Shown here: piece after piece, positions 31,555-63,012 of the stretch
How the letters are laid out: each line of letters opens with the position of its first letter
Position numbering within the stretch: position 1 is the first letter of the stretch
DNA from: Ceratodon purpureus
Lineage: Eukaryota; Streptophyta; Bryopsida; Pseudoditrichales; Ditrichaceae
DNA length: 64,000 nucleotides
Assembly: GCA_014871385.1 (NCBI GenBank)
Contig: CM026426.1
Coordinates: forward strand, 102,528,355-102,592,354
Direction of reading: 5' to 3'
Notes under the pieces: model-generated
Database searches by the model: none
Told to the model about the DNA's origin: nothing
What the model saw: the letters and a program-made list of their open reading frames with translations, nothing else
Program-made: the position numbers and the translations under genes

Positions 31555-34500
31555 TCAACGGTATGTATCATAATAGTCTGAGTCTTCATCACCTAGATCC
31601 AATGTATTATCAAAAGCAGCCTCCAAATGTAGGTACTCCTTAACTGCCTGGCCATATCTCCGCTTCGTCTTCCGTTTCTTTGGGGAAGGTAATGCAGCCT
31701 GGTGTCTTGCTGCTTGCTCAGCGTAAACAGGCATGCGGATGAACGTAGCTGCCGGCGACAAGGGAACTCGGGACACTCTACATACGAAGGGAGTATCTGA
31801 GAAAAGACGATTCTAAGCCTGACTGTTAGAATCACAAAATGTTCAAAATTTCTGTCTAATACGAGACCTGAGGACTACACTCACTGCCTGCTCTTTGGTC
31901 GGATTTCCGGAGGATGGTAAGCCAGATCTTCTTCTCCAAGCAGGATCGGAGGAACCTCGTCATCGTAGTTGTCGTCGTTGTCATCGTCTTCGTGGTCACT
32001 GTGATGGCCCCCGGCACGTGCACAAGGAACCAAGTCAGATCTCATCGGAGCAAGAAGTTCCTTGAATATGTCCTCGTCCTCCTCAATAGCGACAATGTGA
32101 CGGCCACGATTGCGACAGACTTGTATGGAGTCGCCTACAAAACTTGACAAAGAAGGGAGTTAGTGTTAAGGCGAACTACAATCTGGAAGTACGGGAAGTC
32201 AATATCATAAGATTGTAAGGCCGTACCTGTTCCCGCCGTGACGTCAACGACAATGCCTCCAGGGGATGTGCAAGACAAGACGATGCAGCCCCAGAAATAC
32301 TCATCAAGTTCCTTAGGACCACGCCAAGGCCGATCGCCGTTCATCTTCACAGTCTTGGCGTTAGCCGAGTTCATAAGGACGTTTCCCTTGACAACGTCAA
32401 TATCTCCACTCTGGGTTGGCTTCAGAGTGAAGGCAGAGTTCCGAGTGCCGGCGGAGAGAGATGCTGGCCTGGGATCCGGAGTGCATCTGACATAAAGACC
32501 CACCCTAAAAAGGTTAGTGGTCTCAACCCTAGATGGAACCCAAAGCAGCAGTATCTTGAAGTTGGTCCACTCTTTAAACATCTTGTACCCGAGGCTTGGG
32601 CAGAAGGACCTGATAGTCTTCCTTGTGGAATTATCGTCAGTGTAAACAAAGACAAGGGCGCCATCATCGTGCAAGAAATTATGGGCAAACACGAACGTGT
32701 TCTTGAACCAGTCCTTGTGAAGGACATTCCACTTAGGGACATCCGAGGCCGTTCTTGATATGCCTGGTACCGGGGAGTTGTCCAGAACCTGGGCAACTAC
32801 AAGGTCCACCATTCCGTCCTTCATCTGATTCCTCCCATAAACCCGGCAGGTTCTATCATAATTGCAGTGGCTCGCGAACTTTTACACCGCATCGAACTTC
32901 GATTTATTGATCATACCATTCATGATCAAATCAAAAATATTGTACTCCAGCTCCTTCGGTTCGTCAACTAATCAAAACTCAGGCTGAGGCAGAGTAAAAT
33001 CTGTCCCAGAGGAGTTCGCTGATGGCGAAGGTCCATCCAGTCTACAGCTGGACTTCGGAGATTTAGGGGACCGTTGTCCTCTTCGGTTATTACTTGGTGA
33101 CCCTGCAACTAAACTTGTACCACCGTCTTGTGATGCAGCGGTCCTCTGCGCTACGCGTCTTCCTAGCTGGGCGTGCGATTTCTTTCTCCTCTGACCAACT
33201 TTTGGGTCGTCAAGTGCAGCCTCTTCGACGTCAGGTACTTCCTCCAAAGTGGCGTTAACAACACCTAGTCGTCTCTTCAGATCTTCCTCCTCGGCGGGGC
33301 AGAAAGTCTTTGCACACTCGATGTACCACCCGCATTCCTTCAGATGCGCCGACGGAAATGTGATCTTCTGGTACTCCGTGAAGATGAACGAGTCATGGCC
33401 AGGCTCAGTCTGGGTATCCATCCAATCTGGTTCCTCCGTGATCGCCGCCTTTGGCATCAACTCCCTCTTGTAGTATCTACAAAACAGAGGGAATTGGGTA
33501 AGATTTCTTTATCTGCGCAAAGGCCAAACTAAACAAAAGCCGACAAGGGTTTTGATACTCATCGATAGATAAACCGGCTGACGATGAGATGGCCCTTAGG
33601 CACCTGGTCCCAAGTGTCTTTCCGCTGGAATGCATGTTTTCCACCAAAGACAGTTGGAAAAGCTTTTTGCCAAACCTTCTTCTTCCAGTAGTTCAGGTAC
33701 ACTTGCCAGGACTTCACTTCCTTAGTCCAGTCTGGAATCGGATCTTCAAGGAGGAGAGGCTCAATCTTCTCCGTGATCTCGTCCTCCAGCAGCGCATAGA
33801 AGCATGCTTTGTGCAGCCAAGCATGAAGTTGAGAGTCACTGCACGAAGACCTCGGAAAACTGTTTGCAGCCCTGGTAATATCAGAGCCGTTCCACATCTT
33901 GAGCCAACGCACTTTATACATCCCCTTCACGTTAGTGGTCACAATAAGCTGCAGTTTGTCTAGCCCCATCTTGCACTTTTGATTAGGGCGATTGTTGTAA
34001 TGGTTTCAAATCTGAAAGGACGTAAACCCAAACAACGTAAGAATCAAAGTCATGCCATAACAAACGCTCATCAGGCCATTCCACCGTTGCAGCTACACCA
34101 CATCCTGGAGGCGTTAATTAACGTTAGTGACCAAAACACTTGATCCTTCCAGGTAATCTGCAAATTCAAATGGCTTATCAATGCCGAACATGACAAGCCA
34201 CCTGTCTTTGCAGCTCACCTAGAGGGTCAAAATATTTTGGACAGTAACGTTCTACTGGTCATCATTTGAAATTTAAACACATCCTACCTAAAGTTCTAAC
34301 TCATCAAGCAACAATCAAGTAGAAAGATAACCCCCAAAAATGATTAAGTGGCAACAAACCCGACCGCGCCTCTGAGGCCCGGAAGGGGCTCTCGGCACCG
34401 AGAGCCACTTCCAGGCCTCAGAGGCGCGGTCGAGGATAGAGGCCAAAGGGCCCCGAAAAGCCCCTTCGGGCCGGAAACCCGACCGCGCCTCTGAGGCCCG

Positions 34501-37500
34501 GAAGGGGTTATCGGTACCGAGAGACCCTTCCCAGCCTCAAAGGCGCGGTCGGGATTTGGTAGCAAGGGACATCTTGGGACCCTTCGGGCCGGAAACCCGA
34601 CCGCGCCTCTAAGGCCAGGAAGGGGTTCTCGGCACCGAGAGCCTCTTCCGGGCCTCAGTGGAGCGGTCGAGATTTTGGCCATGTCGGGCACAATCCGACC
34701 CCTTTCATTATAAAAGGAGACGGAATGGCCCATCAGGCATAAAGAACTCCATTATTGGGTCCTTTATAAGCCTGGTGGGCCCTTTAAGGCCCCTTTTGGA
34801 TTACAGGGGCCAATAAGGGCCCCTTCGAGCCGGAAACTCGACCGCGCCTCTGAGGCTCGGAGGTGTCTCTCGGCACCAAGAACCCCTTCCGAGCCTCAGA
34901 GGCGCGGTCGGGTTTCCGGCCCGAAGGGACCTTTACGGGCCCCTCTCAGCCCAAGAGGGGCCGATAAGAGCCCCTTGGGGCCCGTTCCCCGACCGCGCCC
35001 TTGATGCCGGGAGGGGCTTCTCGGCACTAAACCAAACCTAAGGGCGCGGTCATATAGTAGATATAAGGGCCTCAACCGGGCATCAATACGATAAAACAAA
35101 CTTACTTGCAGAAATCTAAGTAAAGAATGTCCAGAAACTACATACCTTTGCGATAAAATCCTTCCTGTTCTTAGGATTCGCAACGGCTTGGAGCTAGCTG
35201 AAAAGCTTGTTAAGGGCTTCTTTTTTCTTCAGAATCTGATTGAATATAACCTTACGTAAACGCTCCCCTGTTTGCTTATTCAGCGGCGTCGTCTGCTTGT
35301 AGTGATTGCATGCTTCCTCGCCTGCACTTGCTATTTCTTCCTGCCACATTTAACCCCGAAATTTAGTTAATTTAATTATTTCGACATACTCTATAAATCA
35401 GACAGGAGTGAAAAAGTATAAAGGATTTACCGAGAAGAGGTGGTTGACCATTGTCTCCGAAGACAATGGATACCAAGTATTGGTCGACTTGTTCTTCTCC
35501 CTCAGGTACTCTTCCTTGCTGAGGATATTCTCAAAATACGTTATGGGTAGCAGCCCATATTTGTGCACCATCTCGATCTGGTGCAAGACATTTGTCTTGA
35601 CATGCGCCTGCTCATTTGACGTGTCACGTCGTATGATATTAGATATCACGAACTTCAACTAATGAAATCCACGACTTAGCATTGAGTAAAAACTTTAAGA
35701 TCTAGTCTCGGAATGGTACTTACTTGTTAACTGAATGCATGGCCCTGAGAATACTTAGATATAGATTCTTATGGATCTGAACGACCAAGCAATTTGGCAT
35801 ACCGTGAAGGCGATGCCAGTCCATGTTGCCCATCTTAGCAGCTAGCTTCATCGATGTAGCGCTTCCAGGCCGTGTAGCGGTGATTGCCATCGTAAATGAA
35901 AAACATCTTTCCGCGAAGTGGCTTCAAATCGGGTTCAGAATTCAATTCTAACTCGAATTCATTATCCAACTGATCCCATGCAGAACTCCATTCCTGTCTG
36001 ATTTCATTTGTAACCAGCTTCTCCCTCCCTTTCGTATCGGTCAGAGCCACATAGAACACTGCTGACCATACTCTGTACCCGGACCGGAACTCGCTCTGCA
36101 ACCGTAAGACCTCAGACTCCAACACTGGCCTGACTTCGGGCATACTAACCATGCGGCATAAAGGAATTCTCAACCTCGAGAACTTCTCAATCGGCACTTT
36201 CCGACTCCGGTTGACTGCAACAAAGGTGTCGTTCTCGAACTCCTTGATCATTCGAGCCTCTATCTCCGCTGGTATCACACCCTCGTCCTTCCCTAGAGGG
36301 TTGTCCAGCAGTTCCTCCCCCTTCTTGACCCACGGCCATTTGAGCTTAGCCGGCGGCGTGTCTGCATCGTCCTCCTCTTCCTTCTCTTCATCCACCAATG
36401 GATCTTTCTCTTCCGCCTCCACCTCGGCTATCTCCGCCCTCTTCCGTGAAGGTGTACTTTCCAATGTATGCGCGGCACCATTGTTCGCGCCCTCGGCCAT
36501 GGCCGTCTCCTTGTTGACATCGCCTGCCACTTCCTCCCGTTCAGACTGCTCCGTCGCCTGCAGGTCCATGCTCTCGTCCTGCCCCTCCCCTCCTTGCCTC
36601 TGCCCAGCAGCCACAACCTGCGTCTCTTCTACAGCCGCCTTCTGCGTCTCCCCCACAGCCGTCTCCTGCGCCTCCTCGTCTTCGTCTTCCTGCAACAATG
36701 TATCGCAACCTAACTAGTCAGCTGAGTCGAATCCTTTCTAAAACCCTAGATACATACTTAAAAACTGGACGCTCTGACGATGCTCTAATAACTTTTCCCG
36801 CCCTAACTTCAGGGATTACTATCTTACCTACTCTCGCTGGACAACGGACTCCGCAATTCTAACCTTCTTAGACTTCTTGTGCTTTTCGGGACGCTCCTCC
36901 CTACTTGGCCTCTTCTTACTTTTTCTTTCACTTTCTAATGACCTCTCATCTCCAGCCCTCTTCTTTCTACCCTTCCTCTCACTACCTGGTGACTTCTCAT
37001 TCCCGGACGACCTCTCCTCTCCATGGCCGTTCTTCGACCTACCCTTCTTTAACTTCCCTCCATACTTAGGGTTAAACATGGCGACAAACTATGTAGACCA
37101 ACCCGCACCCTACAAACCCTAACAATGACACCCTAAACCGAACCCTGACTGCACTACACTGCCACACACAAAAACCGCAAAGCAGTGTAAGCTAGGCACA
37201 GTAAGGCTGCGAGCTAAGAACACCACAAGGGGGCACGGAGAGACTGAGCATGGAGCTTCCCCCCCCTTCTTATACCTGGCCTCAAGAGCAAGGGCGCACA
37301 AACTAATGATGTCTACAATTAACACACGTACCTCTAAGCACTTAGGTATGGTGAGGGGAATTGATTGCGGGAGGGGCGTCACACACTGCGATGGCGATGT
37401 CTCACACAACCCGCCCCCCTTTGCTACTCGAGGTACTGCAATGACGGGAAGTTTTGCGAAGTCCTTACTCAATGCCTTCACGGTCCCGCCAAACCCCTCA

Positions 37501-37655
37501 ACACGTCGCCTCCGTTCCTCAGCCTGTCTCATCCTCAAAGCTGTCAGCTGCTTCGAATTTGAAAACAGCTTGTCTCTCCCCTTCCTCTTTCTCTTTCTCT
37601 CTTTCACAGGAGTGGCGACCACTTCAATTGAATCATTGACATGCATCTGTGACAC
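31555..37655 (-). CDS. ParB-like/DNA methyltransferase fusion, copy A (multi-exon)
   Basis: Minus-strand exons inferred by alignment to copy B: N-terminus 37655 to about 37473 (basic, LFSNSKQLTALRM); about 37089-36828 (Lys/Arg/Ser-rich, ending at TAG then GTAAGA); 36689-35724 acidic linker plus ParB-like domain (DGNHR at 35891-35877, frameshift near 35845); about 35660-35431; 35340-35146 (TAG 35196-35194); about 33969-33563; about 33474-32980 (CGWYIEC); 32824-32227; 32134 to about 31890; about 31785-31555 (TGA). The last three carry the methyltransferase: DLVVAQVLDN, HDDGALVF, WRGPKE, VVDVTAGTG and RHIVAIEEDEDIFKELL. The motif order (IV, X, I, II) is that of beta-class amino-methyltransferases. 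Motif IV lacks DPPY. Probably nuclear. Broken here by two TAGs and a frameshift. Confidence 0.75.
34340..35060. repeat. Long-stem hairpins with CTCTCGGCACCGAGAG cores (intron of gene A)
   Basis: Four to five inverted-repeat units. Each has arms CGACCGCGCCTCTGAGG...CCTCAGAGGCGCGGTCG enclosing GAAGGGG(C/T)TCTCGG(C/T)ACCGAGAG(C/A)C(C/A)CTTCC, so each could fold into an ~80-base near-perfect hairpin. Spacers carry CCCCTTCGGGCCGG words. The array lies in the intron between the exons ending 35146 and starting about 33969. Confidence 0.8.
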
Positions 37656-38163
37656 TATCTTGCTCTCTCGTTACACTAAACATCTCGCAGAATGCCGCTC
37701 CATGCTTTAATATATCTCTCGTCAGGATGAGTACAATTATTTGTGACGCTTCCACCTCTTTTGGCGCCCTTCCAAATAAAGATTTCCTTAACTCAAAATT
37801 CCTAGAATTGGCGGCTGAAATCCCTCCCCTTTTTCCCATGTCAGGGAATTTACTCTGACACGGTGTACCAGCCCTAATTTTATTCAGTGGCAATCAAGAG
37901 ACGGCTGGCCCTTATTATAGAGCCTTGTAGTGGCTGGTGATTTGTCGCATGATCGTCCTTTCAAGTAAACATAGGGGTCCCCTAAACCCAGTCATCATCC
38001 CCTTTTGGACCGTTAGGTATTCATCCTCTCTTCAACATTCGTCTCTGTTATGACAAGTTCAGATTAGCAAATTCAAACGTATAAATGCAGTGGAAAATGC
38101 TGCGACAACCCTCTCAATTCTGCACTTCGTCGATTGTGTCGCTCTTTCTGAACTCCCTACGCC
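37656..38163. promoter_or_regulatory. Divergent promoter between methyltransferase A and MULE A
   Basis: About 508 bases separate the two start regions. TATTATAGAG (about 37913-37922) is the only TATA-like word noticed. The equivalent gap in element B is 495 bases (63013-63507), so a shared bidirectional promoter is likely. Confidence 0.45.
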
Positions 38164-41100
38164 CTGGCGCTACCTGTCTCGGCTCAGTTCCTAGGTTCCG
38201 TTTTTCTTTACGCACATGGCGTCACAATTCCGCTTACGTTTAGGATAGATGATGATGGGTACGCTCTTGTGTCATGTCAGCGTCTTAGTCTTAGGTTCGA
38301 GTATCAAAAGGACACCATTAGCGTCGAGGAGGAGATTGGTGATGACCTCACTAGAGAGATCACACATACACTAGGCCAGGTTTCATTCGTGGACGAGAGG
38401 GATTGTAAGATGTGGAGGCTCATGCCTGGTAGGTTTAGAGTCTACGGTCTCACGAATTCCTTGATGGCTGTGTCCACCGAGATCCTGACCCCCAGACGGT
38501 CCTCTACTTGCACCATCGAGACACCAGGAGCGCTGGACGTGAAGTTGAAGACCGACTCTGCCTCAGACACGCCTCTCCTTGCCAAAGTAAAAGTCAAGCC
38601 GGGCTTAGATACCCCGGTTATCAATCTCTCCTCTGACGATGACGGGAGCCCGCGGACTCGAAAGTCAGCCGAATATATACCCACCAGAGAACTTGTCCAT
38701 CCCGAGGCGGCCGTGGACACTCGCGCTTCGAATCTCATGGTCGTGCCCCCTTCTTTGGACGAGTCCGTCAGTATTGTATCGCTGTTGAAGAAGCTTACTT
38801 CGCGGACGGATAAGAAGAACCTCTTGAAGAAGTTAGACTACGACTCCATCAGACATGAGAGAGTGGAGTATCTGCCGGCGGAGTTCAACGGCGACGTCAT
38901 CTTTGAACTGCCACCTGTCGGATCCTCTGCCTCACGATCAGCCGCCAAGTCCATGCAGGGCATGGATAAGAGGAACGATGGGCACGTGTGGACAAAGACG
39001 ATCACCACCAACATCTCCAACAATATGGGCCTCTCTTTTCGGTCGTCTTCATGTGCGGGCCATTTGCAATGAAAGGAACAAGGACTGCGGGTACCTTGAG
39101 CGCGATCATCGCATCGTCGACGTGAATGAGACCGAATTTGACGGATGCACGTTGCAGGCGTTTGTTGTGGGTGACGAGGCTCCGAAAGAATCCACTTTGG
39201 TCTGCAAGGTATGTAAGGAACCTCCCGTATGCGTTGCCACTTCTAGAGCAAGGATATTTTATGTTTCGTACAAGGGCAATAGGACACGGGCGTGCATCCA
39301 CGTAGGATCCCACGACCACCCTGTCAAGGTGGGAGACTACCGCGACATTAAGGTTGAGATAAGTAGTTTGATAAAAAACCAGATCGAGAACACACCCAAG
39401 GCTACAAAAAGCGCCGTTGTACTAGAGGCCAGCAAGGACCTGATTGGTAGTTTTTTATTACGATCGGAGGATGATCTACCCAAGACGCTCACTCTTCAAG
39501 AGCTTTACCCGATGCTCGATAGGTGCAAAGATATGGCGTCGCCTAACATTAGGAACAAGGTCGTTACTTTTAGGTACCTCAGACGGTATGGGGTGATGGA
39601 GAGCATAACGAAACTGCGGAGACTCAGCACATAAGATTTGGTACAGAACAACATGTTCCCTAGCCAAGGGTCAAAATTTGACAAGGTCTACGTGTTCAAA
39701 ATGTCGGAGCTTGGGCCCGCCAGTGGTGTCGATCTTGTGAAGAGAATGCAGCCGACGGGGGCTCTGGAGCTTTCGTGGATGATGTTTGACTACGTCAGGC
39801 GCGTGCGAAATTGGACAACCATGGCATGCCACGTGTATGACTCCACGTACTGCCGGGTCATGACAATCGCATGCTCCGACATGCAATCTGAAGACGCCGA
39901 AGCCCAGATGGTGTTCTGGAAGTACCTGAATGCAGTCATGAAGGAACACGGCGTGGAGAAGCCCAACTTCAAGGGCTTCATGGCGGACAGCGCCCAGGCT
40001 AATTGGAATGCGGTCCGGGTAGTATACGGCAATGGCAACAAGGAAGATCGAATGGAGGACCGGGAGAGGACCTGTCAATTTCATTGGACCCAGTCCATGG
40101 TGCTTCATACCGAGAAATACGTCGCCAAAGAGTTGTGGGATCAACACAAAAAGATGTGTCAGCAATACAGGATGGCAAGATCAATGGCGGAGGCCGATAA
40201 TCTTTATGACGGGATAAGGGCTTGGTGGGCATCTGCGGGGGCAGTTTCCGAATCTGCCTTATCGAAACTTGACTTATGGCTCTCATTCTGGCATTATCGT
40301 TATCGCGAATGGGGTGGGTTCATGACCGAGGTAACCACGCCACCCACTCTTGTTTTCTCTTTCCCTGTACATGCTCATCGTAGTGACTCATTAATCGTTC
40401 ATCCATTGTTGGATCTCAGAAATTCTCGGAGGCGGAACTTGCAGAGATGCCGTCCTGCAACCTCGCGGAGACGGTTCACAACAAGTGGCTTCAAGCATCC
40501 GGCAATAATGGCAGCGATCTGTACGTCGCCACCGTGGACGACTTTATCCCTGCTTTTCTACATGTTGTGAATTACTACCAGTACCTAAAGGGCGACGTGG
40601 GGGGCACTGGCCCGAGCAAGAAGGAGCTGAGGCTACGATCCGCAGAACGTAGGGCGAAAAAGACGGGCGAACCAAAGGTTCTGGAGGACCCCATGCTGGA
40701 CATGCCCGGCGCCGATGAGTTTTGTACGCGCGTCCCACATCTGCCAGGGGAGGAAGTGTTTGGTTCGCGGAAACGCAAGCCCGACTTGCCTCTTGGCGCT
40801 GAGGAAGAGTCGCATAGGCCAGATAAGGTAAACTTTTTGCATCCTCGAGTCAGTACGAGACCTGTCAGAGCTTGCGTGGCTCCCATGCCGATCATCGTCG
40901 AGGAAGGCGGCTGCGACGTTGAAGCAGCTCATCATCCGTCGCCACAGATGGATTCCGTCATCGCTTCACCCTTCAGTGAAGGAGGCGTGCGTCACGTCTC
41001 GGCTGTGGAGGAGACCAAAGTGAACGTGAAGCAGTGGCACATTGCTCGACTGCCAAAGACTTCCGCGAAGTGCTACTGGGCGCAGAGGGCCATCACCAAT

Positions 41101-41838
41101 AAAAAATGCACAGAGAAGGACTTCTTCTTCTGCCCCGACGACATTGAGAGATGCGTGAAGGGGACAAGGCGCAAATGGGTGAACTGGTACGATTTATCGA
41201 GAAAGGAAGGATTTCAACCCATCCCAACAGTATGGCCTGTGAAACTTGGGACGAACCTGAAAGACTGTGAGATTCTTGCCCTGGAGGAGGCAGGGTTTCA
41301 GCTCCCACAGAAGAAACCAGTCTCGCTTAGGAGGCTCTTCACCTCCGACCCCCCTCCGCGAAACCTAGACTCGGTTCCGGTGCTGGCAGAGGTTGACCGG
41401 TAATCTGGAAAGAGAGACGAGAAGATTGTCAAGCGGACCGCGACTCGACCCAATCCGCAGCAGAGGCTGTCCATGGCCTCCTCCGACTCCCTCAAAGCAC
41501 GACTGCGGTCTATCACCATGATTCCTCATCCCGGCCACAGCTGCATCATCGCACTAGACTCCGGGGCTCCTCCCAATGTGACGAAATACCAGATCACCAT
41601 CAGCTCCCTCCCCGGCTGCACATGCCCAGCATTCAATAAAACAATGACAAAGTTCCGTGGGAGGGTTCAATTTACATATTGCAAACATATGTATTACGTC
41701 CTCTTAAAGGTATGCCTGCGTGACCCGGATGTGGAACTTTTCATCCATGCACCGACCTTTAGCTTCAACGAAGTGAAGTTACTCCTCGAGAATGGAATCT
41801 TGACACACCCCTTGGCGGGGCCCTACAAGACAGTCTAG
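38164..41838 (+). pseudogene. MULE-type transposase with SWIM zinc finger (element A)
   Basis: The product resembles Mutator-like transposases: about 280 N-terminal residues homologous to the 63508 protein, a DDE core (HVYDSTYC about 39830, MADSAQANW about 39981, CQFHW about 40072), an intron 40331-40419 (GAG|GTAACC ... TCTCAG|AAA) leading to CNLAETVHNKW, a charged linker, and a C-terminal SWIM finger (CTCPAF about 41617, YCKHMYY about 41677). Defects: CTG at 38164 where copy B has ATG; a one-base frame change near 39030-39050; TAA 39632-39634; TAA 41401-41403. Both TAAs could derive from CAA. The end is TAG 41836-41838. The 9-10-bp target duplication around element A agrees with this transposase type. 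Confidence 0.8.
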
Positions 41839-42090
41839 AATTTGCCCTTTCTAATTTAAATTTTAGACCGTCACGACGTCGCAGTGATTCTCTACTTTTG
41901 TTTTTAATCGAGTCTGACTATGACTGAGTAATACATGATTTGATTTGCCATTATTGTTAAAAAAAGGTGACACCAGGCCGAGTGACACCTGGCCGAGTAA
42001 TTGTCGTCACACATCTTGTCCACCATTCAATTTCCACAAATAATTACTTTATTACCATGCACTTACTTAAAGAATATTACATCACATGAA

Positions 42091-42525
42091 TCAGATGCGG
42101 TTTGGCCGTTCTTTTGATATTTCTACATAGCTACTTTTAGTTTCCATCGGACGGACGACGCATTCATCCAGACGTGGACCCGAGGAAGGACCTCGACCAG
42201 ACCAAGGAATTTTAATGACCGGACTGGACCTCGCACGTCCATATATTGCGGATCTCGAATAAGTCCTAGGAGGAATTCTGCCAACCCTGGAATAAGCATG
42301 GCTTGAAAGGGACTTGGACTCAACCTCCTTAATGGGCGATTTGTCGAGCGCCTCCGTAACAATAGATGGCACCACATCAAGCCCACCGCTATGTCCACCT
42401 TCTACCGGTTTAGGAGGCGATGGTCGTTGCTCCAGCAACAAGTCGTCACCCTCATCTCTAAGAAAGGGTTCAAATGGCCCACCCTCATCACCTAGGGATA
42501 CAACCCCAAAACCGACTTCCTCCAT
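42091..42525 (-). CDS. Hypothetical protein, 144 aa (element A, right end)
   Basis: Minus-strand ATG at 42525 (MEEVGFGVVSLGDEGG); an in-frame ATG at 42612 would add 29 residues. Stop near 42091. Acidic first half, then a basic Arg/Ser/Tyr-rich half (RIPPRTYSRSAIYGRARSS). It converges with the MULE gene, whose stop is about 250 bases away. The gap 41839-42090 holds a short duplication (GTGACACCAGGCCGAGTGAC). No family recognised; it may be a DNA-binding accessory protein, which is only a guess. Confidence 0.4.
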   Translation of the reverse strand: MEEVGFGVVSLGDEGGPFEPFLRDEGDDLLLEQRPSPPKPVEGGHSGGLDVVPSIVTEALDKSPIKEVESKSLSSHAYSRVGRIPPRTYSRSAIYGRARSSPVIKIPWSGRGPSSGPRLDECVVRPMETKSSYVEISKERPNRI

Positions 42526-42873
42526 GGCGAAAATGGTATGCACCCCACCCCAAACCCTGAACATTCCACCAGCTAACAATTGAGAGAGAGAGAGCAAAGG
42601 CCCCAGGGTCATCCATTTATTCCAGTGAAATCACAGAAGACCCCGTCATTCACGCCCTACCGCACAATTTCGAGACCGGTAGTTGATGCGCAAACCAAAA
42701 AAACCCTTTAACAAAACCAGGAAAGCATCCCACATTCAAGGAATATTCCTTAGAATATTCGAAAAGATTCTCTTTTCATCAACTTACATTCTATTTTTAG
42801 TAAAAATTATTCCATTTTTAGAATCTGCTCTCCATTTTCCGCTCTAAGAGCAAAAAATCTCTGCTCTTTGCTC

Positions 42874-42911
42874 TCTGCTCTCCGCTCACCACTCACATAC
42901 AAGCTTCCCTC
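42874..42911. repeat. Element A right terminal inverted repeat
   Basis: Complementary to 26489-26526 with 5 mismatches in 38. The inner side extends into CTCTGCTCTTTGCTCTCTGC repeats from about 42845. Confidence 0.88.
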
Positions 42912-42972
42912 TGTCTTTATGCCTTTTTACATATGATCTTTCTCAAATGTATCTAACTCTTGGATGCCATAG

Positions 42973-43047
42973 AGACCATGAAGTTTAAGGCCATTTTCCT
43001 TGTTTGCTCCTCTGGAGATTCTAGAATATCCGGGGAGGCTACCAAAG
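42973..43047 (+). pseudogene. ParB-methyltransferase copy C, fragment 2 (exon start)
   Basis: Immediately right of the element A duplicate site, after ATGCCATAG, the frame TMKFKAIFLVCSSGDSRIS matches copy B exon TLMFKATLLVRSLDASLR (57406 onward). The exon is cut at 43047 by the TG...CA element copy 2. Confidence 0.72.
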
Positions 43048-47247: not shown

Positions 47248-47289
47248 CCGAAATATGCTATTGCTAGACTAAATAGTTTTTTAATTTAG

Positions 47290-47790
47290 AAGCATCAATT
47301 GGTGTAACTTGATTTGCCGAGAGACACATTGTTGCCCTGGAGGGAGATTCCTCTATTTTTGAGGAAGTTCTTTAGCCACTCTAGATTGCCGGGCCCATTG
47401 TTCCTACCGTTCACAAGTCCCAAATTTTCCCAGACTTTGATGACAATGACGCTCTTCCTAATGAGGACAAAATTAATCTATTTGAATAAGTTTTTTTGTT
47501 TTGTTGATCTGTCATAGGTTTCCTTTTCTTACGTTTATCTTCAATGAATTCTAACATTTGTTTTCTTTTGCAATCATTTGAAGTTGTTCTCTCTATGGCG
47601 TGTATCTTCCTCACCTTCTAGTTCTTATTTGCAGTTGCCAAACTATGTTGAGGCTATGGCCCGTGCAGTTGCTGAAAAGTCTTCAATAATTAGCTCTAGA
47701 ACATCCTCTAGTCCTCATGAGAGAAATGATCTAGAGTGCTATGTTTCAATAATCAAAGGGCTTCAAAGAGGGAAGATAAGTTTATAGCCT
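47290..47790 (+). pseudogene. ParB-methyltransferase copy C, fragment 3 (last two exons)
   Basis: After TTTAATTTAG the frame reads ASIGVT, then ERHIVALEGDSSIFEEVL, matching copy B ASIRAALNTGRHIVALEGD (57045 onward), with TGA, TAG and TAG stops. The TAG after PL lies at the same place as TAG 56953-56951 of copy B. The second piece, about 47630-47785 (LPNYVEAMARAVAEKSS), matches the copy B last exon LPCYAENIATIMAEESS. Confidence 0.75.
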
Positions 47791-48735
47791 AGCTTTGCCA
47801 TATCTTCATGTTTCCACTTTCTATAGAAGTTGACATGACATTGATATGATCTTCATCTTATACCGAGATTGACTGTCCTTATTGTCACTTATTTACTTCC
47901 AAAAAAACACTTGCTTCCATCCTTGCATCTTTGAAATATTCTTCATTTTATGTATGTTGCCTAAACCTTTAGGGATTCTTGCAGGGCTCCTTAAGAAGAA
48001 CAAAAACCATGTAAACATTTGTTTACTATGACTTGCATCTATACATATTTATAGTGATTGACCATTGTAATACTTTATATTCTAACATTATTGTGAAGTT
48101 ATGCGCTAATGAAATTGTATTTCTACGGTGAATACCATATCCATTCTTCGAGGAACTAACTTCCAATTGTAAATACCTTTTATATCTAAGCATGCGTTGG
48201 AATAGAACAATAACACTATTGTTTTTATAAGGCAATATTTTCATACTAAAAAATTCTATAACCATCCCTACAATTACAAGTTATTTTAAAAACTTTCATA
48301 ATTACAAAGAACTCCACGGCAATCTCCATAGGCATTGTCAATAGTTGCATCCAACCATATTATGATGTTGTAATTGTTTTGCACTAAGACACATGAAAAA
48401 TCCATATTCTTTCATATTGAAACACCAAAAATTATATGAATATGGATCAAATATAATAAACTTATAAATAAACAAATTTTTGTCTAAAAACTTATATCAC
48501 TTAGATCAATTCACGAAGTAGAAAATATTCTCAAATACACATGACATCATGATGATGTAAGCCCTAACAAGGATGTCTTAACCCTAGAACTTACACAATG
48601 AGCGGGATTAGTTACAAAATCCACGGTAGTACACACCTTTACCACAAAAAACCAAAAATAGGTGACTATTTTTAGCTAATTATCACGGTTATAAGAGACA
48701 TTTTTCCCTTCAACAGATGCTAAAAATTCAAATCT
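47791..48735. other. Element C right subterminal region, no gene
   Basis: AT-rich sequence downstream of the last copy C exon; nothing recognisable except the terminal repeat that follows. Confidence 0.45.
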
Positions 48736-48807
48736 CTGCTCTCTGATCTCTCCTCTCCGCTCTCTGCTTGCTGCTCGCCGCTCGCCACTCGCATGTTAAC
48801 TTTCCCC
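48736..48807. repeat. Right terminal inverted repeat of element C
   Basis: The complement from 48807 reads GGGGAAAGTTAACATGCGAG, then TGGCGAGCGGCGAGCAGC. It matches the element A right end at 28 of 38 positions, including the GAGCGG tandem words. It lies 1.0 kb beyond the last copy C exon, in the orientation expected for the right end. TGACTTAATG (48808-48817) would be its target duplication; I found no partner on the left. Confidence 0.7.
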
Positions 48808-49025
48808 TGACTTAATGGGATTACTGAATCACTTGTCACCAATTTCCACGGAAAAATTAGCAACAACCAATTAAGGCACAAAATGTGCATGCTCAATGTT
48901 TGAGGGGCTTCATTCTACGTACACACAGTAGGAGATAGAAAGTAAGTTCCGGGATAAACGGGCTCTAGAAGTAACTTAGAGTTCTAATATAGGCTTCAGC
49001 ATATAAAGTGAACCACAACTTTCAT

Positions 49026-50996: not shown

Positions 50997-50999
50997 TGT

Positions 51000-53660: not shown

Positions 53661-53689
53661 AATATTAACCCCATGACGGTTGTCTTGGA

Positions 53690-54165
53690 CCAGAGTTGTC
53701 ATAATGGACGGACGGGCCAAAAAATTGTCGTGTAGTCACGTGACGAACGTGACGGACGGTTATCGGACGGACGCTTATCGGACGAGCTCCCGACCGCGAG
53801 CAAAATTACTGTCCTCACAGTTTACTACTGTTTACCATGGGTGGCGCCCGTCGTCGTGTCCGCGCGCGTCTTTGCGCCTGTTTGCGCCGGTCATATGTGG
53901 TTGTTCGCGCCCGTCGTCAGTCTCGCGCGCGCGCGGTGATCGCGCCCGATTACCCTCGCCCGATCAGGGTCGCCCGCGCCCGTCGCGCGCTCGCTGTGAT
54001 CGCGCCCGTCGTCTGTCTCGCGCGCGCACAGTGATCGCGCCCAATTACCCTCGCCCGATCACGGTCGCGCACGCCCGTATCTTAGGAATAACGTGCTCGC
54101 GCCCGTAGCAGCCTGCGCCCGCCCAACCTGCTCGCGCCCACACTGTCGGCCCCGTGAGTATAAAT
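53690..54165 (+). promoter_or_regulatory. GC island 5 with TATA box
   Basis: TTGTCATAATGGACGGAC (53696-53713) and several GGACGGACG words lead into a CpG-dense GCGCCCG tract (53850-54150) that ends at TATAAAT (54159-54165). The order matches islands 2 and 3, and the left motif matches the complement near island 4. Confidence 0.55.
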
Positions 54166-54384
54166 TGCCACCCTCCTCAACTGATTTCGCACCCCCCCCA
54201 CTTTGTGCATTTTGCCTTCAACAGCCCAAGGGTAGCTGATTGCTTAGTGCTACGGTGGGTTTCTCAGGTAATCAGCGTCACCAGGTAAAGATGCTTGTGC
54301 TTATTGTGGGCTCGGATTTATCTGGAAAGCAGCTGTACTATCTAGTTGCGGTTGTTTCTTGCATCCTCCATGTGCAGCAGAGAT

Positions 54385-54589
54385 TATTTTGTTGCAGAGT
54401 TACCGATGCATGATTTGCAAGGATCTTCTCCTGGCGTCATCTCCACTTCATCTTGCGGAGCCTTGGGTTGCCCAGTTTTGTGGTGAGCTGAACTGCCAAC
54501 AAGAGGCGGAGTGCAGTAGTTTCACGAAAGTTCTGATGGCTGCCAAAAATAATATCAAGGGAATAGCAGTGAATGGATCGAAAAGATGA
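54385..54589 (+). CDS. Short hypothetical ORF downstream of GC island 5
   Basis: An open frame to TGA 54587-54589 with a Cys pair (YRCMICKDLL) and a further Cys pair later (CGELNCQQEAEC), possibly a small zinc-binding fold. No ATG precedes it in frame; CCATGTGCAG before it is a possible acceptor, so it may be a second exon of a gene driven by the TATA box at 54159. Weak evidence. Confidence 0.25.
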
Positions 54590-54799
54590 GAAGACCTTTT
54601 TAGAGCTTCATGGAGTAGTTAGGAGCTCAAGTAATATCGGCAGTATCAATGGTAGTCACATTTTAGCAGTTCGTAAAAAACTGCTCTACTGTAATAACTG
54701 AATATCAGAAATTTTGATATATATTGTAACTACTGCTTTAGATGGTCAAATTAAATTGTTATAAGTGATTTGAAATTTTGAAATTTTAAAAGGATTATC

Positions 54800-55290
54800 A
54801 TAAGTGTCATGAGGATAGGGAGATACCACAAGTAAGTGGGAAGGGATGTGGAGTGACAGCGAGGGGGAGGGACGGGGGAGAGGGATAGGGAGTGACTGTG
54901 GGGGAAGGGTGAGGGGGAGGGATAGGGAGTGACCGCGAGGGGGAGGGGAGGGGGAGAGGGATAGGGAGTGACCGCGAGGGGGAGGGGTGAGGGGTAGGGA
55001 TAGGGAGTGACGTTGAGGGGGAAGGGAGGGGAAGATGGATAGGGAGTGACAGTGAGGGGGAAGAGAGGGGGAGAGGGATAGGGAGTGACCGCGAGAGGGA
55101 GGGGTGAGGGGTAGGGATAGGGAGTGACCGCGAGGGGGAAGGGAGGGGCAGAGGGATAGGGAGTGACCGTGAGGGGGAAGGGAGGGGAAGAGGGATAGTG
55201 AGTGACCGCGAGGGGGAAGGGAGGGGTAAGGGGTGACAGTGACGGATGGGTGAGGGGGAGGGATAGGGAGTGGCCGCGACAGGGAGAGGG
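54800..55290. repeat. GGGAGTGACCGCGAGGGG minisatellite
   Basis: About 11 units of 40-45 bases, each GGGATAGGGAGTGACCGCGA followed by GGGGGAAGGGAGGGG. The unit is the complement of the interruptions in the 29.9-31.4 kb array. Confidence 0.85.
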
Positions 55291-55299
55291 ATAAGGAGG

Positions 55300-55690
55300 G
55301 AGGAAGAAAGAAGAAGTTTGAAAAAAAAATGAAAAGAATGAAAGAAGAACAAGAAGAAAGAAGAGGGGTGGAAAAAAAAATTTAAATAAAAGAGGAACAA
55401 GAACAAGAGGAAAGAAGAAGGTTGTACAAAAAGTTAAAAAAATAAAGAGGAAGAAGAAACAAGAGTAAAAGAGAAGGGTGTAAAAAATAAAAATAAAAAA
55501 TAAAAGAGGAACAAGAACAAGAAGAAAGAAGAAGGTTGTACAAAAAGTTAAAAAAATAAAGAGGAAGAAGAAACAAGAGTAAAAAAGAAGGGTGTAAAAA
55601 ATAAAAAAATAAAAATAAAAGACGAATAAGAACAAGAAGAAAGAAGAACAGTGAAAAGAAATAAAAGAAATAAAAAATAAAAGAGGAATT
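55300..55690. repeat. ~115-bp purine-rich tandem repeat
   Basis: Three copies (near 55391, 55505 and 55620) of AGAGGAACAAGAACAAGA... followed by GGTTGTACAAAAAGTT and AAACAAGAGTAAAA. The Phe-rich minus-strand frames are repeat artefacts. 55691-56109 contains nothing recognisable. Confidence 0.75.
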
Positions 55691-56109
55691 GTGGGTTATG
55701 TGAATCATGATTAGTGAACCAATTAGTTATGTTATGTTGGTTTGTGTCCTATGTTGTACCATTCCTTGTTGCAGAGGTATCAAATTAACCCATCTCCATT
55801 GTATTCCATTCTTTCAATTTCTGAATTCCAATTCTTCCCAAACTTCCTATCTTTCCAATTTCTGGATTCCCCTCCCTCCCTACCACCCAAGTTCTCATAC
55901 ACCGGGAGACGCCAAACAGTGGAGGGAGAAATAATTTAAAAATTAAAATAAAATTAGAAATAGAACCCCCTTCTCAAAGAAGAAAAATTACAATTGGAAA
56001 GAAAAAATAAAATAAAAAAAATAGTGGAAGGTCTTGAATCACAAAGATACCCAAGAGTTAAGATTTAATAGAAAAAAAAATAACAAAACAAAAACATAGA
56101 GCTGGGACA

Positions 56110-56290
56110 CCCACTGGGAGAGAGGGAGAGAAAGAGTGGAGAGGCTGAGGGTGAGAGAGAGGGAGAGGTAGAGGGAGAGGGAGAGGTAGAGGGAGAGGGA
56201 AAAGGATAGGGAGTGACCGCGAGGGGGAAGGGAGTGGCAGAGGGATAGGGAGTGACCGTGGGGGAGGGGTGTAGGATAGGGAGTGACCAC
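56110..56290. repeat. (GAGAGG)n and GGGAGTGACCGCGAGGG units
   Basis: A short array of the same type as 54.8-55.3 kb, about 220 bases beyond the 3' end of methyltransferase gene B. Element A has its related array at the corresponding place. Confidence 0.75.
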
Positions 56291-56511
56291 GAAGGCAGGG
56301 TAAATTTTCAGGGGATAGACAGGGAATGCCGGGTTGTATCTTCAAGAGGTTATTCGGAACAGACTCCGATCCATTGTAGTTGCTGGCAATGCTAATAAGT
56401 GGTGAGAGACATGTCAAACGTAAATGTCATGTGAAGATAAAAAAAGAGTAACATAGAAATGAAATGTGCAGGCTTGTTAAATATAGTTAAAATGCAAAAA
56501 TCCATAGACTC

Positions 56512-59500
56512 TCATGGAACAAATTCATCTTCACTCTCAGAGGCACTAATATCTAAGAATATCTGCACCCTAGGATCAAAATGTTCTCCAGAAGATGAAG
56601 ACTTGCTAGAGCCTCTGGAAGACTCCTCTGCCATTATGGTTGCTATATTTTCTGCATAACATGGAAGTAGAAGGTCGGAAGTAGTAGGTGATTTGTATCC
56701 TGTCCAAGAGCTCATTGGACTGGATAGATTAGAAGTATTCAGGGACCCTTCTCCCGTCCATGAGCTCATCTGACTCAGACTGCAAAACAAGACAACAATT
56801 AGCTCAAACACGAGTCTTGCAGTTTCAGAAATGAAAAAGAAAAATAAAACAATAAAGGACTTACTTACAAAGGTCAATTCGCTCCATGTCTGGTAATGGT
56901 TCGTCTTCGTCCTGCATGTCCACATCTGATGCATTCGGGACCGGGATGATCTAGAGAGGCTTCAAAACCTCTTTGTAGACTTCTGAATCACCTTCGAGAG
57001 CAACAATATGTCTTCCAGTGTTAAGTGCCGCTCGGATAGAAGCTCCTGAGAAAAATTCAGCAGTTAGAAGAGTACTTTAACAAAATGCATTTAGTTGACA
57101 TAAACAAATAGGCAAATGTATCGTACCAGTTCCAGCATTCAGGTCGATGACTATGCCTTCACTCGGGCAAAGGCTCTTAATAAACAGCTCAAGTAAAGGA
57201 ACAGCTTTTTCCTTAGGACCTCTCCACATTGTCCCATCTCTCTTCGTTTTGAGAGCTGTTTCCTCAGTGACAACGTTGTGAATGCAATCATCATTCACAA
57301 GGTTGACTTTACCGAATCGAGGGTCATTCTTAATGACCAGCTGTTTAGGCTGCCTCAGCGATGCATCAAGGGATCGAACGAGCAGAGTTGCTTTGAACAT
57401 TAAAGTCTACAATAACAACAATCAGATCATTAGAAAGCATTAGCATTATACAAGTTAAGGAAGAAATGGAATACAAAAAATTCTCTTAACATCTTACATA
57501 TTTGGAGGGCGTGGTGGGATGAGTAAGATGCATTGAATTAACAATCATCCAGTCATCCCTGAATTTAAGGTCGTTGTTGTTTAGCCAAGCGGCAATCTCT
57601 TTCTTGAGCTGCGGGTTGTCTGGATGGAGCAGGGCCCCGTCGTCATGCATGTACTTCGCACAGAAACCAATGACCATTTTCAGGTAATCCGGTACCAACT
57701 CATTCCAAGCAGGCACTATTGTGGCATCAGAAAAGACTCCTGGGACTGGCAGTCCATCCGGTATTTCTGTGATGACAAGATCCGCAGCCGGCCTGGTGTC
57801 TAGTAATCCTTTGAAAAAGAACTCCTGCTTTGCTCCTACCTGAATGTATGTAGAAGTATTAGTAATGACTTCGAGGGTGAAGTAGGAGAAGCAGGGACAG
57901 GGAGTGACACTGGAGAATAGGTACGAGGTGATATGGGTAGTAAATGCCAGGGAGAAAGACGAAAGTTACAGGGATTCTTCGGAGAGGGAGAGGTCCGCTG
58001 GCACAGCCGGCACCGGCAACCAAGCGGATGGGATACAGATTTTCATTTCAGGTAAGAGAAGAAATTCAGACTGACAGAATGGAAAGAAAAAACCCGTACC
58101 TTTGAGAGGAAGGAGAGCAACTTTTCGAAACCCTCTGGAAATTTCTTGTGCAATGCCTTGTACTTGAGAATCCCTTGAAAGGACTCGTTGATTATGAGAA
58201 CCGCGGAGGGACTATTAGACGATGTTGCCCCTTGGGAGAGCGCCATGCTTTTCACCGAAGGAGGTGTGAAATCTTGGACCTTATCAGCTGTAGCTTTCGC
58301 TACCTTCCCGACAACGCTCCCAATCCGAGTTCCATCCTGTGCCAGTGTCTTAGGTTCTGGAGCCTGAGTCTCGATGATCCTCGTGTCGGGTACATGAACC
58401 TCCTCTTGTTCTCCATGTTCCCTCGTGTCATTGGCCGCGATGTCCTCGTCGTCCCCGTCATCACCGAGATCAACTGCTTTTCGTTTTGCACCGCGAGATT
58501 TCCCTTTCTTCCCAGGGCCTTTACCCTTAGCCACGGGGGACTGTGCGTCGGACTCAGGAGGAGTGCTGGCTTGAAGCTTTGCGAGTGCAGGTTGAAGAGA
58601 GTCTCGAAGAGAGACATCGAATGAAGGAGGCTTCATTGGAGGGCAGTCCAAGTACCAGCCACAACGTTTGTAGTGGCATGGATCCCAGGCCTTCATGATG
58701 GCTTGGGTGTACATGCACTCCGAACCAGTGGTGTCAAGATAATTTGCAAAAAAGGCTGGCACCTTCGAAACAGCCTTTCTGGGAAACACGATGTATTTAA
58801 AATATCGATAAATAACCCTACGCAAGGCCTGGTTGAAATTAGGTTGCTGCTGAGCTGTCTTGTTCTTGTGAACTGCATCAGTTCCTTTGAATTCCCGAAA
58901 GAATGCCATGTCCCAGAGATTGCACCGCATCGCATCTACATAATCAACTATTGTTTCTATAGGATCTTGTCCGTGCGGGTTGTAGTTGATTTCAACTCCC
59001 ATATCCTCCACCACACCATTAAAATGCTCTTCTGCCTCAACAGCCAACTGGAATACAACATGTTTATAGATAGTTTTATATGTTTTAGAGTTATGCATAA
59101 GGTACAACTTGCCTAGGGGTGCACACAAAGAATCAGTGTGCTAACAATGAAATCGAAGATAGAATGAACAAGATTACAAAGAATATTAATTTTTTCTCAA
59201 TAAATGAAAGCTACTGTTAAGAATTTGTACCTGTGCCTACCAGGTAGCACGCTATAGCCATACACCAAATACCACATCAGAGAAATTTTTTTTAGGAAAT
59301 CTATGAGACTCCCTCATTTTCTCAGACATGTTCCACCTTTGTAGCCATTTAATTTTCATTTGGGTCGGCATTGCCGAGGTCGCATACATGTAGAGTTTCT
59401 CCTTGAGCATCTCTGGAGGGTTAAACTTTTCGTAGTGGATTTTAATCTCTTCTAGAAAAGCACGAGTGAGATCAGGATTAGCGATTGGGAGCAATTTTTT

Positions 59501-62500
59501 CAGCTCGGACTCCTGATTGTCCGCAACCTTTTTCACCGCTGTCGAGACCCAGTCATCAACTGACTTTCTGGTCCACTGGCGCTCATCGGGATATTTCTCG
59601 TAGAAACTCCTCTCTGCCGCTGCCGCAGCTTCACCTAGCTCTTGCTGAAAAACAAACAATTATTAGCTTTATAGGACATGGCAATGCAAGTGCTATGGTT
59701 TTGATGTACTAAAAAAATAAAATCTGCTGGAGAAGAATGGCATTACAATTTACCTGATTCAGAACCGCATTAAGTGACTCGAGTGTCAAGGTGTACCAAG
59801 TTCGAGTGCGCCCAGCTTGCTTAGTCTTAGCTGCCTCCAAGGCAGCTGTCGATACAAGTCCCTCAAAGTAGAAGAGTGGCTGTGGGGCTATGCTTTGTAT
59901 CTTGTACAGTTTGTGAACGATGTTGCCTTTAACATGCGACATCTGGTTTCTCCTGCATGGTCAACAATTTACACATATTAATATCATGAATCCTATCGGG
60001 TATGAATAATGCATGAGGGAAATAGATTAAAAGATTAATTGGACAGGCTTACCAATTGACATCGTGCAGTGCGGTGACAAAAGATGGAACATCGCACTTA
60101 GGATCTAGGATTATACTATCCACCAAATAGTGCCAGGAAATGTCTCCCTTGTGAAACTCCTCGATAATCGGCAACCACGCTTGAAGACGGTGATTGCCAT
60201 CCCAGACCATGAACATCAAATTCGAAAAGACACATAAATCCTCGTCTGCTTGCAGTCTCTTTTCAAACTCCGCGTTTACTTGCCGCCACTTAGGACTCCA
60301 GGACTCCATTATCTCATCTGAGACTTCTGTGGATTGCCCATTTTCATTAACACCTACGACATAAAAAAAACCATTGCCCTCCATGTACCCACTCGAAATA
60401 AAATATGAGCCGAGGCTGGAGACGTTACTTTTAAGGTAAGGACAGACAACCGGGAGAGAGATCATCCTGCACAGTGGAATGCTCAATCTGCACTTCGACT
60501 TGGGCTCCCACTTTAGTGCATCCAGTCGAGTTGCGGTGTTCCCCGTTGCTGCACCGACCAGATCGTGGAGCTTAAGATTGACCTCGCTCCGGGTGAGTAT
60601 AATCGGGTCTCCCTCTGCAGTCAAAGACAACATACGATAGAGGTAAGTCACTCATTTAATCCAACTTAAGTGCTCCTCAAGAGAGATCCGGTGCCGGCCA
60701 TGCCCCTTAAGCAGTGCTTCCAACATCTCCATGCGACCACTAACAGTATACGTAGCTAAAGTCGTTGCCGGCACCGCTCAACCTTAGGAGGCTGGACCCG
60801 CAAGAGAGCCGATGCCGGGAGCCTTCGAGGCGATGCCGTTGCGGGCACCCCTCCACTCGTTGCAGGCTGTATCCGAATGCCGGAAGCCTCCAAGTCGTAA
60901 CCGTTGCCAGCACCAATCAACGCGAGCAACTGAACCCGTAGGAATGGCGATGCCGGCAGCGTCCGAGGCGATGCCGTTGCCGGCACCCCTATACCCTATA
61001 TCGTTGCCGACACCCCTACACCCCTATATCGTTGCAGGCTGTATTCAAAAGGGCGCCAAAAGCTGAAGCCTCCAAGTCGAAGCCGTTGCCGGCACAAGTA
61101 TTCCAAAGCAGGCTGAACCCCCAAGAGAGCCCATACCGGCAGCCAGGTAGGTGATGCCGTTGCCGGCACTACTCAAGTCGACTGACGTAGAACCCATTTC
61201 AGAGCCGATGCCGGCAGCGTACTAGGTGATGCCGGTACCGAACCGGGGGGTGCCGGCACCGAACCAGGCCGTGACGGCCCCGACCTAGGCAATGCCGGCA
61301 CCGAACTAGGTTATGCCGGCACCGAACGAGTCCATTTCAGTACCGTCAATGCCATCGCCGGCACCTCACAATGCATTGCCGATACAAAATTTTAATAGTA
61401 GAGTCTGCACAAAATAAAGCGAAGCTCTTCGATGGAGCACTGTCGGCAACGGCAGTGCTCCTTTGAGGAGATTATTATTTGAACCGATTTCCTCCCGAGG
61501 CGATGTCGGTGACGACATGGTCTTAAGGCAAAAGTTGATGCTTAGATTGTTGCTATGCCGTCACCGCCATTGGTAAATCAGGCAAGCATAACATATGTTG
61601 GAGACTTTCATAGGAGCATTGTCGGCAACGGCACTGCTTCTGTGAAGGCCATCAACACTTTTAATGTGTGTCTAATTTACCCATGCCGGTGGCGGCATGA
61701 CCTTAGCCCATCCCCATTTCGCTGAATCTGTTCTGGCATAGCTTTGAGCAATGCCTTCAACGGCATCACCATTGAAAGCATGCAAAATAAAAAATGAAGC
61801 CCTTAAAGACTCGAATGCCGTCACCGGCAATGCTGGCCGCAATGCTGACTGCAAGGGCAATGCTTGCTACTAGGAACATAGTCGTCAATGACAGCGCTTT
61901 GTTGATGGCCGTATATATTTATTCACTGAGCCCCGCTAGGCAATGCCGCTAACAGCAAGGTCTTTAAGAGCGCATCCCGGTACCTCAGAGAACAACCTAC
62001 CCGAGAACAATGCGACAATGACAAACCCCATAAAGCAAATTCAACACAAAAAAGCCAGTCCTAGAGACTTACCGCTTACTTCTTGCTGGGTCGCCTGAGG
62101 GTCCGCGGCATCCTCGTCTTGCTCTAAGGACTCTCGCTCACTTCTCTCCTTGTCAACCTCCATGTCCACCTGCTTGTCAACGTCCTTGTTGTCCTCCCGG
62201 TCTAGGTCGTTCGTGGTCGTTTTATCAACCTCCATTGAAGTCGACCGCGCAGGTTTTCGATGCCCTCGTCGCGGACCCTGCGCAGATAATAACAAGGCGC
62301 TGAGGTCGATGAGCTCTAACTTGAGTAACTCTAAGATATCTAGAGACAACCGTGTGGAATTAAGGTCAGACCATAAGCAAGCGACGTGGCGGCGCAAAAC
62401 TAGAAGCCAAGAAACAATATCGAACGCGAACAACTGAACTCTAAGAAGAGCAGAACTAGATGGTGGCCTACGCAACTCGACAGCTACGGGCTCAAAAGAG

Positions 62501-63012
62501 GACAGCTAGGGTAATTATGATCAAGCCTTGTATGAGACAGGGTCAACTAATTTATCATTTCACCCACTTTACTATCATTCCTTAGGAATCATATACTAAC
62601 ATTTGCTGAAATATGAACTCATGACAACATAGTCCATAGAAGCGGAATCCATATTATCATTCAAGAGTACCTCACAAACAATCAACTAGAAGCAAGAATG
62701 CACATAAATTATTCAGAAATCGATATTGCATGCTTTACTTACCCCTGAGTCGTTAGTTTCACTTTTCCCTGAGAGGATGGTCTGATTGTTTCTCCCACGA
62801 CGCTCGTATTGTTTTGTAGAAGTGTTCTCCCCAAAATGCCTACCTCCCCGAGACTCTTCCTCTTCATACTCTAGCACTTTTGTAATCCCATCCTTCAAAA
62901 AACGCTCACTCTGTTTCCTTGCTCTTGCCATTCTACAACTTGCTAAGGCTTTCGGATTACTATATAATATACCACTATTCCTTCTCTTCCTTCTCTTGGT
63001 AGGTGCCTGCAT
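56512..63012 (-). CDS. ParB-like/DNA methyltransferase fusion, copy B (ten exons)
   Basis: Minus-strand exons with phase-consistent GT-AG junctions: 63012-62743 (basic, KRRKRR); 62277-62073 (acidic, Asp/Glu/Val-rich); 60614-60053 (ParB-like: IPLCRMISLPVV, DGNHR 60201-60187); 59952-59754; 59644 to about 59270; 59047-58100 (central domain CGWYLDC and a charged linker); 57839-57498 (DLVITEIPDG, MHDDGALL); 57406-57127 (WRGPKE, VIDLNAGTG); 57045 to about 56870 (RHIVALEGDSEVYKEVLK); about 56781-56512 (Ser/Glu-rich, TGA). The order of blocks fits a beta-class amino-methyltransferase: SAM motif AGTG and the E/D of strand 2 are present, while motif IV has EIPDG instead of DPPY. One in-frame TAG at 56953-56951. 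DNA-binding specificity would come from the ParB-like and central parts. Enzyme activity is uncertain. Confidence 0.8.
60700..61960. repeat. CGGCAACGG/CCGGCACC palindromes and repeats (intron of gene B)
   Basis: The 62072-60615 intron is filled with GCCGTTGCCGGCACC, ATGCCGGCAGC and ATGCCGGCACCGAAC words (60760-61400) and with stem-loop forms such as CACTGTCGGCAACGGCAGTG (61438-61457) and GCATTGTCGGCAACGGCACT (about 61617). These parallel the arrays at 23.6-24.8 kb (copy C) and 34.3-35.1 kb (gene A). Confidence 0.75.

Follow-up and report, generated by a model that had tools for sequence, protein, structure and literature searches.

The fusion of a ParB-like domain to a DNA methyltransferase (MTase) encoded in this 64,000-nucleotide stretch of the Ceratodon purpureus genome (the window) is very probably the conserved accessory, or second, gene of a group of large, high-copy, two-gene DNA transposons in the moss. 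The observed basis for this reading is the termini of the elements, the target duplications, the pairing of the fusion gene with a transposase-like gene and a layout common to four subfamilies; the homology of the MTase, a ParB/Srx-like structure model and low dN/dS in the well-measured clades point the same way. The first-pass annotation had described a plant gene in three independent copies, here called A, B and C. What is found instead is a transposon gene that mostly adjoins a divergently oriented transposase-like gene, and whose dispersed copies are numerous and bear terminal inverted repeats (TIRs), with 10-bp target duplications in 5 of the 11 copies examined.

The reading frames reported by that annotation are present in the window, and the multi-exon fusion of a ParB/Srx-fold domain with a beta-class N6/N4 MTase, which it had proposed for all three copies, is supported by structure prediction and profile searches. 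Exon joins were derived from homology and splice signals. After splicing, the B protein can be aligned with A over six stretches and with C over four, and the introns said to be shared, one after the ParB exon and one within the SAM motif, are indeed common to the copies. The domains of the element A protein follow the order basic N-terminus, acidic linker, ParB/Srx domain, CGWY region and beta-class MTase. When compared by tblastn with the protein of the near-identical C9 copy (L019-L021), window copy A displays a frame change inside the ParB exon, its CGWY/MTase exon carries two in-frame stops, and the acceptor that follows the ParB exon has lost its AG. The features of the window are listed in Table 1.

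Table 1. Positions of the transposon, gene and repeat features in the window
Feature	Position	Strand	Remarks
Full-length decayed transposon of the A subfamily (element A), 16,423 bp	26489..42911	-	5' (transposase-side) end at 42911
Target site duplication, 10 bp, TGTCTTTATG, left	26479..26488		exact repeat
Target site duplication, 10 bp, TGTCTTTATG, right	42912..42921		exact repeat
3' TIR, GAGCGGA-like units	26489..26534	+	inner limit approximate
5' TIR	42866..42911	-	inner limit approximate
GA/CT-rich simple array, part of element A	29515..31443	.	limits approximate
GC-rich, partly palindromic repeats, intron of the A ParB-MTase gene	34350..35030	.	limits approximate
ParB-MTase gene of element A, decayed	31579..37079	-	
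ParB-domain open frame of A	35838..36713	-	breaks off inside the domain
CGWY and MTase exon of A	32138..33508	-	2 in-frame stops
Transposase-like gene of element A, decayed, divergent from ParB-MTase	38068..41835	+	tblastn, 88-92% to C9 copy
ParB-MTase gene of copy B, other subfamily	56515..60651	-	ParB domain ~45% identical
ParB domain of copy B, stretch folded for the structure model	60052-60651	-	
Divergent transposase-like gene of copy B, start only	63445..63960	+	leaves the window; 52% to A transposase, tblastn 8e-44
ParB-MTase fragments of copy C left of the A insertion	25392..26456	+	40-52% to B
Fragment of copy C right of the A insertion	47292..47381	+	60% to B, 30 aa, E=5e-4

Read inwards, the ends of element A are GAGGGAAGCTTGTATGTGAGTGG and GAGGAAAGGTCGTATGTGAGCGG, with TGTCTTTATG immediately outside each; in the whole window the latter decamer occurs twice on the plus strand and not at all on the minus strand. 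From position 26506 to 42911 the window matches the dispersed copy L019-L021 piecewise at the DNA level, with 88-96% identity in the unique parts, 71-83% in the arrays and a few stretches unaligned. An array matching the GA/CT-rich one was called by TRF in L020/L021, and the GC-rich intron repeats have a unit of 151 bp in the C9 copy. Since the copy C exon on the left flank ends at GT, element A apparently sits in an intron of copy C, an insertion that would explain why copy C looks scattered; a search on the right side of the element gave no match to the next copy C exon (B residues 830-925).

The genome searched comprises 362 Mb in 151 contigs, the large ones being C1 to C13; C6 (110.5 Mb) is what we take to be the sex chromosome. 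The A ParB exon gave 134 scored matches from 1,900 first-look candidates, distributed over every contig from C1 to C13, and the B ParB exon gave 150 from 1,828. Comparison of six 30-kb A-type neighbourhoods resolved one repeated unit, 98-99% identical over the genes and 80-97% in the arrays and tail, with a sharp 5' end common to five of the six and a 3' end visible in three, one of which has an inverted tail. The C9 unit is 16.1 kb long and the C1a unit 17.6 kb, and the paired ends of C2a lie ~32 kb apart. At no more than two mismatches the 5' and 3' terminal motifs matched the genome 336 and 768 times, respectively, and the reversed pattern of either gave no match. The A-type copies with an exact 10-bp duplication are window A, C2a, C5, C2b and C8. 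Four of the 11 copies (C3, C4, C9 and C1a) have readable flanks and no 10-bp duplication, which counts against the transposon reading, and two were unreadable, C10 being masked and the end of C2c lying outside the fetched piece. Inverted termini and a target duplication of constant length, the features that define a DNA transposon, are both found, and the same two-gene layout recurs in the subfamilies A, S2, S3 and B.

Pairing of the two genes was assessed with 69 of the 71 A ParB rows at ≥62% identity (two second pieces were dropped), all 55 A transposase rows, 15 ParB rows with a 320-323-aa frame and 18 of the 61 transposase rows from the S2 search; the remaining 43 of these 61, a 70%-identical transposase group, were left out of the ParB pairing. 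A ParB exon lies within 6 kb of 50 of the 55 first-frame transposase rows of the A subfamily, every pair being divergent, and 49 of the 69 ParB rows have a transposase row at the same distance or less; random placement (1,000 runs) yielded a mean of 1.1 and a maximum of 4 of 69. The 20 ParB rows that have no transposase row within 6 kb count against the transposon reading. In S2, 12 of 18 transposase rows and 12 of 15 ParB rows are paired, at a gap of 2086-2089 bp. The S2 transposase is 48% identical to that of A and the divergent layout is present; the S3 transposase is 61% identical to A over 78 residues only, at the edge of L039. First-frame rows free of stops number 12 of 55 in the A subfamily, and the element A gene has a frame change near 39.07 kb.

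The transposase-like protein is ~1,100-1,200 aa long, judged from two open frames; of 8,000 candidates scored, 134 are related to it at E≤0.001. One relative was modelled with AlphaFold2 (pLDDT 72.6, pTM 0.41), giving the order E-E-E-H-E-H at residues 537-620, and across 40 relatives D541, D607, C636, H639 and W640 are either unchanged or conserved in at least 90%. The modelled order and the conserved aspartates 541 and 607 are as in RNase-H-like transposases, a likeness to which we attach modest confidence. In the C9 copy the gene matches SWIM weakly and below cut-off, at E=0.039, and a PDB profile search returned no match at E≤1. Mutator-like elements (MULEs) are described in PMC6446971 as having SWIM motifs, 9-10-bp duplications in several groups and, in some, an antisense second gene. 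The moss elements resemble those described there in their 10-bp duplication, which falls within the 9-10-bp range, and in the weak SWIM match, but differ in that the Pfam MULE transposase domain matches none of the 40 relatives at E≤1. The main text of that article mentions neither ParB nor methyltransferase. With reserve, we regard the transposase-like protein as Mutator-like.

The folds anticipated for the fusion protein by the first-pass annotation were recovered in both halves, as a ParB/Srx-like model and as an MTase profile match to CcrM and DpnA. The model predicts a ParB/Srx fold with a GxHR-type motif. Sequence profiles did not recognize ParB in the fusion protein, either in NCBIfam or in Pfam: no Pfam ParB model matched any of 55 members at E≤1 (one member matched DndB at E=0.16), and a sequence-only search of the PDB with the ParB domain found no real match, the best being a ribosomal protein at E 0.079. 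The MTase profile aligned with the beta-class N6-adenine enzymes CcrM (E=3e-9) and DpnA (E=1.4e-8) over almost all of the domain, CcrM being matched over 16-226, and motif IV stands ahead of motif I, the beta order. PF01555 exceeded its cut-off for the L001 and L002 exons and fell short of it for those of A and S2. Unlike CcrM and DpnA, in which motif IV is DPPY, the moss proteins carry D-x-P-x and similar motifs, are fused to a ParB/Srx domain and are encoded by an intron-split gene.

The canonical catalytic motif (D/N/S)PP(Y/F/W) is absent from the copies read, none of the 11 having the PP pair; this count leaves out L006, L007, L061, L062 and the C1 and C5 MTase matches. Motif IV reads DQPY in L001, DQPF in L002-L005, DTPF in L008, DVPE in S2, DIPE in S3, EIPD in B, QVPD in the A subfamily (C9 copy) and QVLD in window A. 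As the motif is altered in 11/11 copies, catalysis is uncertain. Methylation may persist in the subfamilies with DQPY/F or DTPF; for those with DVPE, DIPE, EIPD or QVPD, binding of SAM or DNA alone is more likely. Both the ParB and the MTase exons are under purifying selection in some clades. For the ParB exon of B-like copies dN/dS is 0.13-0.19 between clades and 0.30 for L043 versus L044; in the A subfamily it spans 0.08-1.07 (pairs with dS above 0.05), values that are not low and show purifying selection only weakly. Most pairs of the C-terminal MTase exon are saturated, and dS is finite in 7 of 28, with dN/dS of 0.06-0.20 in six pairs among L002, L003, L006 and L007 and dN of 0 for L004/L005. 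The motif-IV exon likewise has 7 finite pairs of 28 (0.00-0.20, L006 and L007 being partial only), including 0.20 for L002/L003 and dN 0 for L004/L005.

Relatives of the fusion gene occur outside this genome. A profile of the ParB exon found 92 proteins. They are frames from metagenomes and assemblies without a name or labelled 'hypothetical', apart from one assigned to the fern Adiantum capillus-veneris, which is 36% identical over half of the query (E=1e-20). The ParB frame P0156 and the transposase frame P0033 are probably on one contig, as each comes from a contig of 674,632 bases. None of 7,066 candidates from 5.8 billion proteins matched the fusion at full length, which we attribute to unspliced gene predictions, the ParB exon alone having found the 92 proteins. 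A bacterial source was rejected: 0/46 pattern stretches in GTDB contigs encode a relative. A tblastn search of phages with the L001-type MTase gave 16 records, and among the 15 matches listed only the C-terminal 23-31% was covered.

The first-pass annotation knew of no plant-lineage description of the multi-exon fusion, which holds for land plants, in that we found no account in the open-access literature; any suggestion that it is new to eukaryotes at large needs correcting. According to PMC12477816, the giant DNA transposon Sola1-1_Ec32 of the brown alga Ectocarpus encodes, on the other strand from its transposase, a single protein of 1104 aa that combines a ParB-like domain with an MTase of the N4mC/N6mA type, and similar proteins in transposons of green and red algae are credited there to Iyer et al. 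2011 and to Petroll et al. (Bostrychia). By description, the moss elements are like Sola1-1 in having ParB-like and MTase domains in one protein opposite a transposase; they are unlike that Sola-1 element in their moss host, many copies, several subfamilies and altered motif IV. The size of the target duplication differs too, 10 bp in the moss elements and not the 4 bp made by Sola elements. New here are land-plant members, 10-bp duplications with a seemingly different transposase, high copy number, the range of subfamilies, a fern homologue, the altered motif IV and evidence of constraint.

It could be argued that the fusion is an ancient plant ParB-MTase gene with diverged paralogues, as befits a multi-exon gene with common introns and diverged copies. 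The copies, however, are many and dispersed, A has been inserted between pieces of C, and several copies lie inside TIR-bounded, target-duplicated elements; the pairing with a transposase-like gene, the TIRs and the 10-bp duplications led us to reject this host gene family, which we consider very improbable. Extremely improbable is the proposal that the elements are remains of an endogenised large DNA virus. They are large, and ParB-like and MTase genes are found in large DNA viruses, but a transposase relative was present in 0/239 pattern-matched viral stretches, the fusion gave one short viral match (48 residues of the MTase C-terminus), and TIRs with 10-bp duplications are at odds with such an origin; on the viral contig scans and that single MTase match this reading was rejected, the long frames of the elements having been inspected by eye only. 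Less easily dismissed, if still improbable, is capture of the gene by the transposon, in the manner of Pack-MULEs, as a passenger that plays no role in transposition. The weak dN/dS of the A subfamily would fit a passenger, as would the statement in PMC12477816 that for the majority of accessory genes in the giant Ectocarpus transposons no function is known. Against it, the fusion gene adjoins the transposase in four diverged subfamilies, dN/dS is low in two clades, and the same article places a protein of this kind opposite the Ectocarpus transposase.

The reading of the fusion as an accessory transposon gene leaves room for the same element with an MTase that is catalytically dead in all subfamilies, the protein acting only as a DNA-binding scaffold. 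We give this only slightly less than an even chance: the alteration of motif IV in every copy read favours it, whereas the constraint on the DQPF-type MTase exons, both C-terminal and motif-IV, speaks against it, and D-x-P-aromatic motifs are active in KsgA/Erm-type N6-adenine enzymes.

For the accessory gene of a transposon, some self-directed role in mobility or anti-silencing is conceivable, at a little under even chances, and the mechanism that we favour is not ours alone. The element has short inverted termini containing 7-bp repeats and makes 10-bp target duplications, and its transposase-like and fusion genes are read divergently from a common interior region. The ParB/Srx domain may bind the repeated termini or arrays of the element, perhaps as a nucleotide-dependent clamp, and the MTase module could then mark or hold the element's own DNA, helping it to evade silencing or to build a transposition complex. 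In published abstracts, the VANDAL Mutator-like elements with VANC anti-silencing proteins offer a plant element whose second protein acts on the sequence of its own family; neither a ParB nor an MTase identity is given there for VANC. A bolder version, which we think unlikely, is that self-marking drives the spread of a land-plant transposon superfamily whose transposase lineage may be new: the ParB-like domain would load on the 7-bp terminal repeats, the fused enzyme, with its non-canonical D-x-P-aromatic motif, would write N6-methyladenine or N4-methylcytosine, and this epigenetic label, encoded by the element, would counter host silencing in mosses and ferns, some subfamilies having become a dead METTL14-like scaffold.

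Transposon-borne proteins that modify their own DNA would be a direct handle on how mobile DNA escapes silencing. Ceratodon is a moss used in genetics, and with many copies, young near-identical ones among them, and a clear terminal motif, binding, methylation and transposition are thus testable in moss. The elements extend an algal kind to land plants and join it to a transposase that seems to be a different one. They would also account for coding sequence of bacterial appearance, which automated annotation might take for plant genes.

Several minor observations concern the individual copies. In the C11 A-type copy (L022-L024) the 3' part runs opposite to that of the other copies, and GC-rich repeats of 151 bp lie close to the switch point; a flip by recombination is possible. 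The C8 A-type copy (L055-L056, C8:1801310-1817530) is probably nested in an S3-type element, as its flanks resemble, by eye, the intron of an S3 fusion gene. The S3 element in L039 has, just upstream of its ParB exon (5400-5807), a YxPTSPx-repeat frame that by eye is like the C-terminal tail of RNA polymerase II, and, between its first exons and the ParB exon (2250-5147), a long tandem array in which several frames are open, up to 966 aa. A 572-bp segment of the window (53695-54266) is 95% identical to a repeat at L038 3567-4126, which begins ~30 bases inside the exon that follows the SAM intron in the S2 copy; the fusion gene of that copy is thus interrupted. Window positions 1-5439 hold a 142-bp satellite array (38 units at 91%) with a strong strand bias, the GC skew being ~-0.66 over the first 4 kb, and the same unit recurs at L038 9368-9998, past the S2 fusion gene. 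At 7253-12233 the window contains a hAT-like frame of 967 aa (DUF659 4.5e-35, hAT dimerisation 3.3e-5); the frame after it resembles protein kinases weakly, at a score below cut-off.
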